Positions 22,460 to 29,188 of a stretch of 35,538 bases of DNA are shown in pieces (position 1 is the stretch's first letter; each line of letters starts with the position of its first letter). Below the pieces are notes generated by a model. That model was not told the DNA's origin. It searched no databases and was given only the letters and a program-made list of their open reading frames with translations. This stretch comes from a virus, in IMG/VR virus record IMGVR_UViG_3300033148_002144, positions 1 to 35,538 of that record. One strand, given 5' to 3'. Both the position numbers and the translations under genes were made by a program.

Positions 22460-23443
22460 TTATTTCGTTGTAGTTCTCTTATAGTGTTTCTCTAGCCTAT
22501 GTTGATGTTTACTAATAAATAGCTTTTCGCTTACTTTTTTATTATTTTTAGCACTTAATGTACTTCTATGTTCTACCTCAAAAACCGATACTAAATCTTC
22601 ACACTCATAACTACTCATATAAACTTTATATTTACTCTTCTTAACCCATTCAAATAAAGCATCATGATCTATATCAAACTGATACTTTTCGGTACCTTTG
22701 TATGGAGGGTCTAAATATATAATTGTTTCATCTACTGGGGTATCAATCAAAACATCCTCATAACTATGATTATGTATGTCAAACCGCTCCAACTGCTGCA
22801 ACCGCTCCAACCGCTGCAACTGCTGCAACCGCTCCAACTGCTGCAACTGCTGCAACCGCTCCAACTGCTGCAACCGCTGCAACTGCTCCAACTGCTGCAA
22901 ATCAGTCCTGCCTGTGTACTTCTTAACATGTTTGGTAACTTTTAATCTCTCTTGTCCTAATAAACGCTTAGGTATAATAACTCTGTCATGTTTTCTATTA
23001 AATATCTTACGGCTATTCTCACAACTATTGATAATAATTTCGTGCAATAATCTCTTATCATCTTCAATATGTTTACCAAATATATATGAACTCTGGGCAT
23101 TACCAAAACTCCATATAACTTTACAAAGCCCTCCAAACCAACAATTATCACCCTTGTGTTTATGGAACGTATCTCTGTCTATCCATTGATAAAACTCATC
23201 CGTAACACCCTCATTTTTTACTTTGCGTAATAATTCAACAACACCTGTATTAAACTCATTGTATATGACCTTTTTAATCTGAGGTCTTTGTAATGCTTCA
23301 AAACTAACAGCACCCCCTCCACCAAATAAATCATAAATGTATTTAACATTAGGATTTTTCTCTATTATAAAATCTATTATCTTTGGTGCTAACTTTCTCT
23401 TACTTCCCATATATGGAAGCCCTAATCCTTTAATGTATTTCAT
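22460..23443 (-). CDS. N6-adenine DNA methyltransferase (D12/Dam class) with Leu-x-x repeat insertion
   Basis: The 327-residue enzyme transfers a methyl group from S-adenosylmethionine to adenine. Motifs in order are LPYMGSKRKL (motif X, about 9-18), DLFGGGG (motif I, 38-44) and DPPY (motif IV, 245-248). Between the target-recognition region and motif IV, residues 182-220 are 13 tandem Leu-x-x triplets made only of L, Q, E and R. The ATG at 23443 has AAGGG six bases upstream and starts at the conserved motif; a longer frame from 23488 is unlikely. It overlaps the membrane protein gene by 14 bases. Probable roles are protection from host restriction or marking of phage DNA. Target sequence cannot be read from the protein. 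Confidence 0.9.
   Translation of the reverse strand: MKYIKGLGLPYMGSKRKLAPKIIDFIIEKNPNVKYIYDLFGGGGAVSFEALQRPQIKKVIYNEFNTGVVELLRKVKNEGVTDEFYQWIDRDTFHKHKGDNCWFGGLCKVIWSFGNAQSSYIFGKHIEDDKRLLHEIIINSCENSRKIFNRKHDRVIIPKRLLGQERLKVTKHVKKYTGRTDLQQLEQLQRLQQLERLQQLQQLERLQQLQRLERLQQLERFDIHNHSYEDVLIDTPVDETIIYLDPPYKGTEKYQFDIDHDALFEWVKKSKYKVYMSSYECEDLVSVFEVEHRSTLSAKNNKKVSEKLFISKHQHRLEKHYKRTTTK
22784..22900 (-). repeat. 13 tandem 9-base units inside the adenine methyltransferase gene
   Basis: The coding-strand unit is TTG SAG CRG, repeated 13 times without interruption (117 bases). The first codon is always TTG (Leu). The second is CAG or GAG (Gln/Glu) and the third CAG or CGG (Gln/Arg). Only two of nine positions vary. 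The stretch is much richer in GC than its surroundings. Confidence 0.95.
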
Positions 23444-23642
23444 TAAAAACCCTTCTAATAATATATGCTCTAGCATAACTAGACACAAAAAATATACATG
23501 TAGATATACTAGCTACATAAAACTGATCTAAATCATCAAACAATGGAAATAATAAGAATACTATTAACCATCCCATCACGACACCTACTATCTGATTTAC
23601 CATAATCTCATAATGAGAATACTTTTTACTTTGCTTATTCAT
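23430..23642 (-). CDS. Small two-helix membrane protein (DUF7220-like)
   Basis: The 70-residue protein has a short polar start QSKKYSHYEI, a first membrane helix at about 15-35 (VNQIVGVVMGWLIVFLLFPL) and a second at about 42-58 (VASISTCIFFVSSYARAY). It ends in an Arg-rich IIRRVFNEIH. This is the plan of a small phage membrane protein family (DUF7220) whose ending reads 'SYalRRlF'. The function of the family is unknown. It starts on an ATGA overlap with the cytosine methyltransferase and runs into the start of the adenine methyltransferase. Confidence 0.75.
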   Translation of the reverse strand: MNKQSKKYSHYEIMVNQIVGVVMGWLIVFLLFPLFDDLDQFYVASISTCIFFVSSYARAYIIRRVFNEIH

Positions 23643-24901
23643 CTTACTAACACCTTAAACATATGTGCTACTACGTCAATGGTCCACCCATTACCCAACA
23701 TCTTATATCTTTGCGAATTACTTACAACATCAGTATAATTATCCTCAACTGTTTGAAGTCTTTCACATTCTAAAGGTGTAAGTTTTCTGTATGTTGGATT
23801 ACCACATAACACTTTAGGAATATTACCACTTCCCCCACCTGCTTTAAGTGTTCTAGTTTTAGGACTATCTTCACTGTATGTTTGTTGTTCCATAAACCAA
23901 CTTTTACCAGATGATCCTTTTTTTACATTTATTATATTATCAGATGCCTCTAGTAAAACTTTAGGTTCTCTGTGACCTCCTTGAGATGTTGTAAGTGTTG
24001 GAGCTTTACCACCACCACCATAAACCCTTTTGATTGACTCATTGCCTTTTATATCTGTTGCATCAGCTACATGATGGCAAGTATTATTTTCATTAAATTC
24101 TTTTAGTTCACAAGGTCTTAAAACCATTGATCTTTGTTTTTTCTCTATAGAGTTCCAAGCGACTGCACCACTGTATCTTGCTGTTAAACAAAACGATTTA
24201 CCTTTAGTTGTCATTTCTTCAGTGCTTACACCCCTTTCCAAAATATCTTTTAATAAAATATCTTTATCATCAGGTTGAGTAACATCAGGGATATTTGTCC
24301 AATAATATCTAACTCTATTTTGTGCAGACACTAAAGCACTATTAATCATAATAGGCTCAACACCCATAGCATCATTGAACATTGGAAGCCATTGTTTTGT
24401 AACTCTCACATTTTCTAAGAAAAAATATTTAGGTTGTATCGCCTTCCAAACTCTTACATATTCCCAAAACAAATAAGATTGACCATCAAATTCAAAACCA
24501 TCTTCTTTTAATTGTAGGTATTGTTCAAGAGTTGTTACATCTTTACCACACTTAGTAGATGAACCTTTCATTTTACCGGCAAGACTAAACCCTTGACATG
24601 GTGAGCCTCCTATTAACATTACTTTAGAGGTATCAATAATATATTTACCATTAAGTAATACCTCAAAATCACTTAGTCTTTCCATAGTAATATCTAAGAC
24701 ACTATCTATCTGAATAGTATTAGGGTAGTTGTGTTGGGTAACTTGCATAGCGTATTTATCTATCTCACTAGCGTAATAATTCTCTATATTGATACCTACA
24801 CGATTAAGTGCTATTTGTCCACATGACATACCGTCAAAGAGAGATAATACCGTAATCCCCTTGAGTCTTTTGAAGCTTCTAAGTTTACGTTGTTCACTCA
24901 T
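23639..24901 (-). CDS. C5-cytosine DNA methyltransferase
   Basis: The 420-residue enzyme has all main motifs of the family. They are VLSLFDGMSCGQIAL (I, SAM binding), GGSPCQGFSLAG (IV, catalytic Cys), ENVR (VI), QNRVRYYW (VIII), YRKLTPLECERLQ (IX) and MLGNGWTIDVV (X). The target-recognition domain lies between VIII and IX and contains the Gly-rich segments KRVYGGGGKAPTLTTSQGGH and LKAGGGSGN. The 'LFDGMSCG' start is shared with phage and DNMT3-like enzymes. It probably guards phage DNA from host enzymes together with the adenine methyltransferase two genes on. It starts after GGGAG and is coupled to the next gene by ATGA. Confidence 0.93.
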   Translation of the reverse strand: MSEQRKLRSFKRLKGITVLSLFDGMSCGQIALNRVGINIENYYASEIDKYAMQVTQHNYPNTIQIDSVLDITMERLSDFEVLLNGKYIIDTSKVMLIGGSPCQGFSLAGKMKGSSTKCGKDVTTLEQYLQLKEDGFEFDGQSYLFWEYVRVWKAIQPKYFFLENVRVTKQWLPMFNDAMGVEPIMINSALVSAQNRVRYYWTNIPDVTQPDDKDILLKDILERGVSTEEMTTKGKSFCLTARYSGAVAWNSIEKKQRSMVLRPCELKEFNENNTCHHVADATDIKGNESIKRVYGGGGKAPTLTTSQGGHREPKVLLEASDNIINVKKGSSGKSWFMEQQTYSEDSPKTRTLKAGGGSGNIPKVLCGNPTYRKLTPLECERLQTVEDNYTDVVSNSQRYKMLGNGWTIDVVAHMFKVLVR

Positions 24902-24988: not shown

Positions 24989-25762
24989 TTACATAGCACA
25001 TATACAAGCCTTTAAAGGTTCATCACTATACTTATTGTCTTTGTTAACCTTAAACTTATGTTCTAATTCTCTTAATGAGTAATCACGCTGCCATTGATTA
25101 TTAACTACCTTGTCTAATTGTTTTAATCTACGTTCTACACTTTTCATATACCGCCATGTTTTTTTAAAGAATTTCCACACAATATAATAACTTTGTAGGC
25201 TCATATAAGGACAAAAACCACACCCTGTACGTGTAAAATAATCATACAAAGGGTTAACCATATTTACACTCTCTAAATAAATATCCACATCACCTTCACA
25301 CCATCCCCATTCAATAAGAGGGTATCGCATAGAAGAGTCTTTTTGTATACGTTTTTCTTCACTTTTTGTGTAACCTATTAATTTAATATGAGCTGTTACA
25401 CCTAATGCTTTTAATAAATTATCCATAGGTTTTACTTTACTTTCTCTCTTCCAAAAACAAGGAGTGATTAACATAGGTAACCCTCTAGTGAACCCTTTAC
25501 GCTCTCCTTTAGTTACCTTACCAAAACACCAGCTATCAAATGTAGTTAAAGGTTTAGTAATAATAATTGATTTATTATATGTTTTCATTAAGTACCTATT
25601 GACTTTATCTAAATACTCATACATCACAGGTAGTTCACTCATAGTATTAGTAAAAACAATATGATCTATTCTATCCCCTCGCTCTAATGAACTTAATAAC
25701 ATAGCTGTGCTATCTCTACCTCCACTAATAGTGGCTATTACTGGTAAATTGCCTTTCTTCAT
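24989..25762 (-). CDS. PAPS-reductase-like PP-loop protein
   Basis: The 257-residue protein belongs to the adenine nucleotide alpha-hydrolase (PP-loop) superfamily, PAPS-reductase branch. The PP-loop SGGRDSTAM is at about 14-22, FTNTMSELP (the 'T.ElP' segment) at about 37-45, and a Cys pair GCGFCPYM lies in the second half. CxC is near the end (KACICAM). Phage homologues are common and their role is not settled. DndC, which installs phosphorothioate in DNA, shares the fold, but DndD and DndE are absent here. The start overlaps the primase stop by ATGA. Sulfur transfer to DNA or nucleotide is an inference from context. Confidence 0.8.
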   Translation of the reverse strand: MKKGNLPVIATISGGRDSTAMLLSSLERGDRIDHIVFTNTMSELPVMYEYLDKVNRYLMKTYNKSIIITKPLTTFDSWCFGKVTKGERKGFTRGLPMLITPCFWKRESKVKPMDNLLKALGVTAHIKLIGYTKSEEKRIQKDSSMRYPLIEWGWCEGDVDIYLESVNMVNPLYDYFTRTGCGFCPYMSLQSYYIVWKFFKKTWRYMKSVERRLKQLDKVVNNQWQRDYSLRELEHKFKVNKDNKYSDEPLKACICAM

Positions 25763-28642: not shown

Positions 28643-29188
28643 TTAGTTCCCTTTATCTTGTAAAGAGTCCATAGCTGTAAAAATAAGCTGTTTAAATTGA
28701 GACCAGAATACAAAAGCGTCTGTTGCCATCTTCTTTATATCAACATCACTAAAATTTTTCCATTCTACATTACTGTAATATTTACACCCTATTCGTGTGT
28801 GTTCTTTTTGAACTACCACTTGATAATAAGGTAAATTTATCTGAATAAAGTCAGCTCCACGCAAGTCAGCTTCACGCAAGTCAGCTCCACGCAAGTCAGC
28901 TCCACGCAAGTTAGCTCCATACAAGTCAGCTCCACGCAAGTTAGCTCCACGCAAGTCAGCTCCACGCAAGTCAGCTCCATACAAGTCAGCTCCATACAAG
29001 TCAGCTCCATACAAGTTAGCTCCATACAAGTTAGCTCCATACAAGTCAGCTTCACGCAAGTCAGCTCCATACAAGTTAGCTTCACGCAAGTCAGCTTCAC
29101 GCAAGTTAGCTTCACAAACTGTTTCTTTTATAGTTTCCTTTTTGCACTCGAATATAACTTTTAAATTCCATCTATTTAAAATTTGCAT
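28643..29188 (-). CDS. Pentapeptide-repeat protein
   Basis: The 181-residue protein has a 25-residue start, then 18 uninterrupted A(D/N)LXX pentapeptides (residues 26-115). They form a right-handed quadrilateral beta-helix of about four and a half coils. A C-terminal part with [20 protein letters not shown] and [13 protein letters not shown] is helical and reminiscent of the ends of other phage pentapeptide proteins. Pentapeptide helices such as MfpA and Qnr mimic DNA and bind gyrase. Whether this one does is unknown, and its strong regularity and Arg content are not typical of them. It overlaps the RHH regulator gene by one base, so both are expressed early. Confidence 0.88.
28844..29113 (-). 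repeat. 18 tandem 15-base units inside the pentapeptide gene
   Basis: The coding-strand unit is GRA GCT RAC TTG YRT, coding for (G/E)A(D/N)L(R/Y). Ala is GCT and Leu is TTG in almost every unit. Changes occur mainly at three places: GGA/GAA, GAC/AAC and CGT/TAT. The last unit diverges. This points to recent expansion by slippage or unequal exchange. Confidence 0.93.

Follow-up and report, generated by a model that had tools for sequence, protein, structure and literature searches.

The methyltransferase locus

The window, i.e., the whole 35,538-nucleotide stretch of viral DNA analyzed here, has the surroundings of a tailed-phage genome, with a terminase, a P22-like coat protein, and a family-B polymerase. 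The features that concern us are the following.

22460–23443, minus strand: D12-class (Dam-like) N6-adenine DNA methyltransferase, 327 aa from the likely ATG (PF02086, phrog_56, structural model)
22700–22711, minus strand: catalytic motif IV DPPY, residues 245–248 (D245, P247, and Y248 invariant in alignment A3)
22772–22783, minus strand: motif-III β strand FDIH, residues 221–224, directly after the array (DSSP on the AlphaFold2 model)
22784–22900, minus strand: array of 13 nonamer units TTGSAGCRG, encoding Leu-[Gln/Glu]-[Gln/Arg], residues 182–220 (TRF, pattern search, conserved site in relatives)
23312–23332, minus strand: motif I, AdoMet-binding DLFGGGG, residues 38–44 (D38 and F40–G43 invariant in A3)
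23399–23416, minus strand: motif X, PYMGSK, residues 10–15 (invariant or near-invariant columns in A3)
23430–23642, minus strand: 70-aa open reading frame whose ends overlap both neighboring methyltransferase genes, operon-like (overlaps of the reading frames)
23639–24901, minus strand: C5-cytosine DNA methyltransferase, directly upstream (PF00145, E=3.9e-34)

The mechanically called reading frame of the D12 enzyme runs from 23488 to 22460 (minus strand), and its likely ATG at 23443 is preceded by GAAGGG. The protein belongs to the PF02086 family (E=1.4e-16, 61.4 bits vs a cut-off of 22) and matches phrog_56 with E=2.6e-47. Its score for the Dam subfamily (TIGR00571, NCBIfam dam) is 41.9 bits, far under the cut-off of 114.85, and the target of the enzyme therefore need not be GATC. 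Motifs X, I, and IV (DPPY) follow each other in the alpha-group order, P10 and Y11 also being invariant among the 69 relatives of A3. The C5-cytosine and D12 methyltransferase genes probably share one operon. A PAPS-reductase-domain protein (24989–25762, minus strand) adjoins both methyltransferases and may belong to a module for DNA modification or one related to sulfur.

The initial annotation described 13 Leu-x-x triplets of TTG SAG CRG at 22784–22900, which is exact. TRF reports a 9-bp unit in 13.2 copies at 22782–22900, and the pattern TTGSAGCRGTTGSAGCRG has exactly 12 overlapping matches at 22784–22900 on the minus strand, where 100 dinucleotide shuffles give an expectation of 0.00; no further match is found elsewhere in the window, its own record having been scanned too. 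Residues 182–220 of the 327-aa protein read LQQ LEQ LQR LQQ LER LQQ LQQ LER LQQ LQR LER LQQ LER. As had been noted, only Q/E choices at position 2 and Q/R choices at position 3 vary, which holds for all 13 units, and the seven other base positions of the unit are perfect throughout. Outside the array, only some 11% of the Leu codons of this gene are TTG, and the G+C content of the window is 33%, so that the array looks like the clonal expansion of a single nonamer. Its position was originally given as just before motif IV; 24 residues in fact separate it from DPPY, and it is the motif-III strand that the array directly precedes.

Chance or a simple microsatellite can be ruled out, because no match is expected in the shuffles and because the counterparts in cellular genomes are mostly homogeneous, unmixed, and located in unrelated or non-coding frames. 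A hairpin-forming DNA element is also ruled out, since the region folds no better than its shuffles (z of 0.26 and −1.12). The antisense open reading frames across the array are taken as mechanical by-products, because the codons vary from phage to phage.

Distribution and position of the array in relatives

Scanning IMG/VR for three exact units returned 66 loci, at 59 of which the array lies in frame in a D12 methyltransferase and at the same place. The catalytic motif is found in the same open reading frame in 53 of those 59, the rest being cut by contig ends or having a variant motif. The same pattern occurs at 53 loci in about 85,000 cellular genomes, only one of which (L082) is such an enzyme (59/66 viral vs 1/53 cellular loci, Fisher p about 1e-24). 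Four viral contigs (L007, L045, L054, and L058) have LQR/LQ-rich nonamer repeats with a long and open other frame and are not methyltransferases.

To guard against choosing relatives by the repeat itself, they were sought with the array cut out (alignments A1 and A2), which gave 156 unique enzymes from IMG/VR contigs and cultured phages; no plasmid relatives were found. At least four Leu-x-x units stand directly before motif III in 143 of the 156 enzymes, and at least five in 138, the array length among relatives being 2 to 21 units. Runs of at least four units elsewhere in the gene are found in 0 of the 156. The array is thus a standing feature of one phage methyltransferase subfamily and not a lone insertion, and it is also present in the cultured lactococcal 936 phages. 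The comparable Leu/Glu/Gln/Arg runs that the initial annotation mentioned for other phage methyltransferases are real and widespread.

In most of the 13 exceptions, the same site holds a run that is shorter or degenerate, e.g., LEQLQQLHITNLSY or QNIQNIQNIQNIQI; such runs are seen, too, in enzymes that look intact (L173 and L211). The term "inserted", used at first for the array, is misleading in view of these short or degenerate hydrophobic-x-x runs. On the basis of these exceptions, the long arrays are probably expansions of an ancestral hydrophobic-x-x run. In L260/L340, Ile replaces Leu through most of the run before motif III (QNIQNIQNIQNIQI), and the rule is thus hydrophobic-x-x rather than Leu-x-x.

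In Lactococcus phage 16W12L (L290), the annotation places two adjacent methylase genes in head-to-tail order: 16W12L_035, which contains the array, and _036. Several other 936 phages show two matching places.

Residues and codons of the arrays

In a census of 1109 units, 1101 have Leu at position 1 and 94% have Q or E at position 2, while position 3 is Q in 577, R in 369, and N in 95. The two charged residues are strictly placed, with Glu:Arg ratios of 492:8 at position 2 and 3:369 at position 3. Glu and Arg couple inside one unit (244 LER observed vs 172 expected), and Arg followed by Glu two residues later is depleted. The net charge of the array is slightly negative (mean of −0.88), which makes it poorly suited for direct contact with the DNA backbone. 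A salt bridge between residues i and i+4 is ruled out as the origin of the Glu/Arg placement, its z being only 1.6 and the same-unit Glu–Arg coupling being stronger. The arrays of 117 enzymes also display a period-two alternation (LQQ LER), unit identity being enriched at lag 2 (z of 5.2) and depleted at lag 1 (z of −3.1); slippage register and selection are both conceivable causes.

The peptide is kept across phages and the codons are not: TTGSAGCRG, CTASAGCRA, CTCSAGCRA, CTTSAACRA, CTGSAACRA, and other units all occur, with 25 codon types in the tree set. Inside any one array, the codons are uniform, the main Leu codon accounting for 89% of the array Leu vs 17% elsewhere in the gene. At least 47 switches of Leu codon type occur on a tree of 143 enzymes built without the array. 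A signal at the DNA level, i.e., conservation of the nonamer itself, is ruled out, because other phages encode the same peptide with different codon units.

The variation that does exist inside arrays falls on the protein. Gene diversity is about 0.38–0.39 at the two amino-acid-changing sites vs 0.05–0.13 at synonymous sites. In 83 pure arrays, a set chosen for those residues and in which the units of one array are not independent, the difference per unit pair is 0.935 at the two amino-acid-changing sites vs 0.161 at the other seven; 58 of these arrays have no synonymous difference at all, and 57 vary at amino-acid-changing sites only. We read the combination of uniform codons and variable amino-acid-changing sites as probable repeated loss and re-expansion of units, together with selection that would restore and keep the Q/E and Q/R variation.

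Variation on identical flanks

The number and order of the units change even where the flanking coding sequence is 100% identical. This is the case for L003/L005/L032 (17, 13, and 15 units by one count), L212/L213 (9 vs 13 units), L240/L246 (9 vs 11 units), and L167/L168, in which the unit number is equal and one unit is changed. L017, L023, and L033 have in common an identical 540-nt left flank, and their arrays read, at positions 2 and 3 of each unit, EQ-ER-EQ-ER-ER-ER, EQ-EQ-QR-QQ-EQ-ER, and ER-EQ-ER-QQ-QQ-QQ-QQ-ER, respectively. The IMG/VR arrays are derived from assemblies, in which long repeats can be mis-assembled; for the latter three, this is unlikely since the arrays are shorter than 80 bp.

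Cultured lactococcal phages behave similarly. The group BM9/BM22/BM12/GL4 is counted among the cases of different arrays on identical flanks, BM12 and GL4 being one unit apart with two base differences over the 720 nt of flank compared, and the arrays of LP9406 and LP0109 are two units apart. LP9406 and LP1011 share one array although 21 bases of their first 465 nt differ, so that the arrays change quickly, though not at a constant rate. The first pairs compared had hinted that unit numbers change only in even steps, which the difference of one between BM12 and BM22/GL4 rules out.

Near-identical pairs differ by whole units, save for one 3-bp in-frame slip. The length variation in whole in-frame units that had been proposed is therefore borne out among the relatives, and the ON/OFF form of phase variation is not, because 9-bp units never shift the frame. 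The nearest relative found for the window phage is 58% identical, i.e., no near-identical one was found, and the variation described here is that of its relatives. In L274 vs L332, which have identical flanks, L274 shows inside the array, before motif III, one of the rare interruptions of the triplet register (LERLQLQQ), and the anchor-to-anchor length differs by 3 bp.

Predicted structure

The AlphaFold2 model of the window enzyme (m08d3adcf93b6), built with 69 relatives, has a pLDDT of 83 and a pTM of 0.81. DSSP assigns a helix to residues 185–219 and a strand to residues 221–224, such that the predicted helix continues straight into the motif-III strand; within the array, the pLDDT falls to about 60. 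For an LQN-type enzyme, a second model has helices in the array with one break and a pLDDT near 80. Of the two forms put forward in the initial annotation, a small solenoid appears in neither model, and the extended helix agrees with the prediction at that pLDDT. Leu recurs strictly every three residues rather than with heptad spacing, in line with the earlier remark that this is not a classic coiled coil. A disordered loop with a constant number and order of units, which would have spoken against the earlier reading, is not what is seen: the arrays vary, and the model gives a helix, albeit with a pLDDT of about 60.

The fold is Dam-like, the nearest solved structures being 7m6b, T4 Dam, E. 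coli Dam (EcoDam), and pneumococcal Dam (DpnM), with VIA Z scores of 15.5 to 7m6b and 14.2 to T4 Dam vs about 11–12 for unrelated methyltransferases. T4 Dam has no counterpart of the array in its alignment to the window enzyme, and its segment from residue 145 onward is matched immediately behind the array. By sequence order, this puts the array on the C-terminal border of the recognition region, where it may lie next to the DNA.

Comparison with known systems

Phase-variable mod genes have simple repeats that shift the reading frame and switch the gene ON or OFF. They resemble the present case in having a copy-number-changing tandem repeat inside a methyltransferase gene, but the units here are 9 bp long and the frame is kept in the relatives compared.

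With the D12/Dam family (PF02086; T4 Dam, E. coli Dam, DpnM), the window enzyme has in common motifs X, I, and IV, the Rossmann-type core, and a recognition region ahead of the motif-III/IV strands. Closer to it are M.Phi15I, M.Phi93II, and M.Phi145II of the lactococcal 936 phages (PMC4190342, PMC4759559), which belong to the same subfamily and have the array at the same position with the same residue pattern, in CTT-SAA-CRA codons; the window enzyme, from an uncultured phage, is a distant relative of these.

The closest known mechanism is that of the TAEL repeats in Type IC specificity subunits (EcoR124I/II, EcoDXXI; PMC3874165), which are likewise in-frame helical tandem repeats in the specificity part of a methyltransferase. 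The number of TAEL units varies naturally and changes the target (PMC3874165). The TAEL unit, however, comprises 12 bp and four residues in 2–3 copies, as compared to 9 bp and three residues in 2–21 units for the present arrays, and it lies between the two recognition domains of a separate subunit, where it alters the gap of a split target (PMC3874165). The array, in contrast, consists of Leu-[QE]-[QR] units with two polymorphic positions and lies in a single-chain enzyme with no known split target, the catalytic motifs and the array being in one open reading frame. It is thus not a member of the TAEL type, yet by analogy it may work like one.

Two of the lactococcal enzymes allow the array to be compared with the target. 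M.Phi15I has a 7-unit array, and M.Phi93II, which is identical to M.Phi145II, has 19 units by the same count; outside the array, the two are ~86% identical, with 38 aligned positions that differ. According to Murphy et al. 2014 (PMC4190342), the Phi15 methylome contains CC6mAG only, and those of Phi93 and Phi145 contain CY6mAG, assigned to M.Phi93II/M.Phi145II by comparison and not by cloning, as well as GT6mAG and CCC6mA, assigned to no enzyme. A longer array that accepts more sequences would explain the Phi93/Phi145 motifs, which is suggestive for n=2 and a confounded comparison. That the array tunes target recognition is plausible from this two-enzyme correlation.

The motif alignment in the same 2014 paper omits 55 and 15 residues (PMC4190342), and the passages searched of this paper and of PMC4759559 do not mention the array. 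More generally, no description of a Leu-triplet array was found in the portions searched of the open papers, including PMC4190342, PMC4759559, PMC10477858, PMC10333322, and PMC3874165. The enzyme family is known, and the array itself is apparently undescribed within this open literature.

Proposed role of the array and alternative explanations

Phage methyltransferases shield phage DNA from host restriction. We tentatively propose, with a probability of roughly 0.4, that the array is a slippage-prone, selected element of the recognition region, conserved but hypervariable, that retunes the target specificity. It would form the segment, probably a long α helix of Leu-x-x triplets, between the variable target-recognition region and the motif-III strand in a subfamily of solitary Dam-like phage adenine methyltransferases. 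In each phage lineage, it would grow, shrink, and be reshuffled in whole 9-bp units through slippage or unequal recombination, which would keep the codons uniform, and selection would preserve Leu as the first residue of each triplet, Gln/Glu as the second, and Gln/Arg/Asn as the third, with both latter sites kept polymorphic. Changes in helix length and charge pattern might then move or re-shape the recognition region against the catalytic domain, by which the target sequence could be broadened or switched, giving the phage a rapid answer to differing host restriction enzymes. A stronger version, in which unit number and Q/E, Q/R pattern would set the accepted bases, so that slippage and selection rewrite the target without domain exchange, we regard as unlikely; a single-chain type II methyltransferase would then carry a repeat code that can evolve.

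A hypervariable element at a fixed site in a widespread subfamily, which includes well-studied dairy phages, would be a new fast route to target change. Natural enzymes of different array length are already sequenced, one pair having published, differing methylomes, and if array length does set specificity, it would offer a handle for building methyltransferases with chosen targets.

The main rivals to specificity tuning are two, to each of which we give a modest chance. The array could be an arm for self-association or for binding a phage or host protein, a sticky Leu-triplet rod whose unit number tunes affinity rather than target. The near-invariant Leu (1101/1109) fits such a role, as an exposed helix with Leu on all faces would want a partner, and so do the coupling of Glu and Arg within the unit (LER, 244 vs 172) and the nearly neutral net charge; the three-residue spacing of Leu, however, makes an ordinary coiled coil unlikely, and a range of 2 to 21 units is difficult to match to a fixed interface. 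The array could also be a tolerated spacer, a permissive linker in which a 9-bp microsatellite expands and contracts and selection asks only for a helical and soluble segment, number and order being near neutral. Slippage alone explains the codon uniformity, the unit number ranges widely without the reading frame ever being lost, and the apparently intact enzymes with short or degenerate runs agree with it as well. The strict assignment, in about 25 codon backgrounds, of Glu to position 2 and of Arg to position 3, the amino-acid-changing differences that far exceed the synonymous ones, and the persistence of the array across a deeply diverged clade speak against a mere spacer and for selection on the residues.

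It is improbable, in our estimate, that the varying helix is an arms-race surface, bound by a host defense protein or an anti-methyltransferase factor, such that array changes bring immune escape rather than a new target. The excess of amino-acid-changing variation, the quick turnover on identical flanks, and the near confinement of the array to phages would be expected of it, but two varying positions with two main residues each leave small room for escape, and we know of no host factor that binds such a helix. Targeted mutagenesis in the manner of a diversity-generating retroelement, writing the two variable positions, is very improbable. The limitation of the variation to two base positions (C/G and A/G), with the other seven fixed, resembles it, but the C/G changes are not adenine-specific. 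A retroelement of this kind was rejected since the window record, possibly a fragment, has no RVT_1 reverse transcriptase match and no second copy of the repeat as a template.

The window phage has a second uniform coding repeat, in a pentapeptide-repeat protein (PF00805, 28643–29188, minus strand), in which a DNA tandem array at 28848–29115 comprises 17.9 copies of a 15-bp unit with 89% matches.
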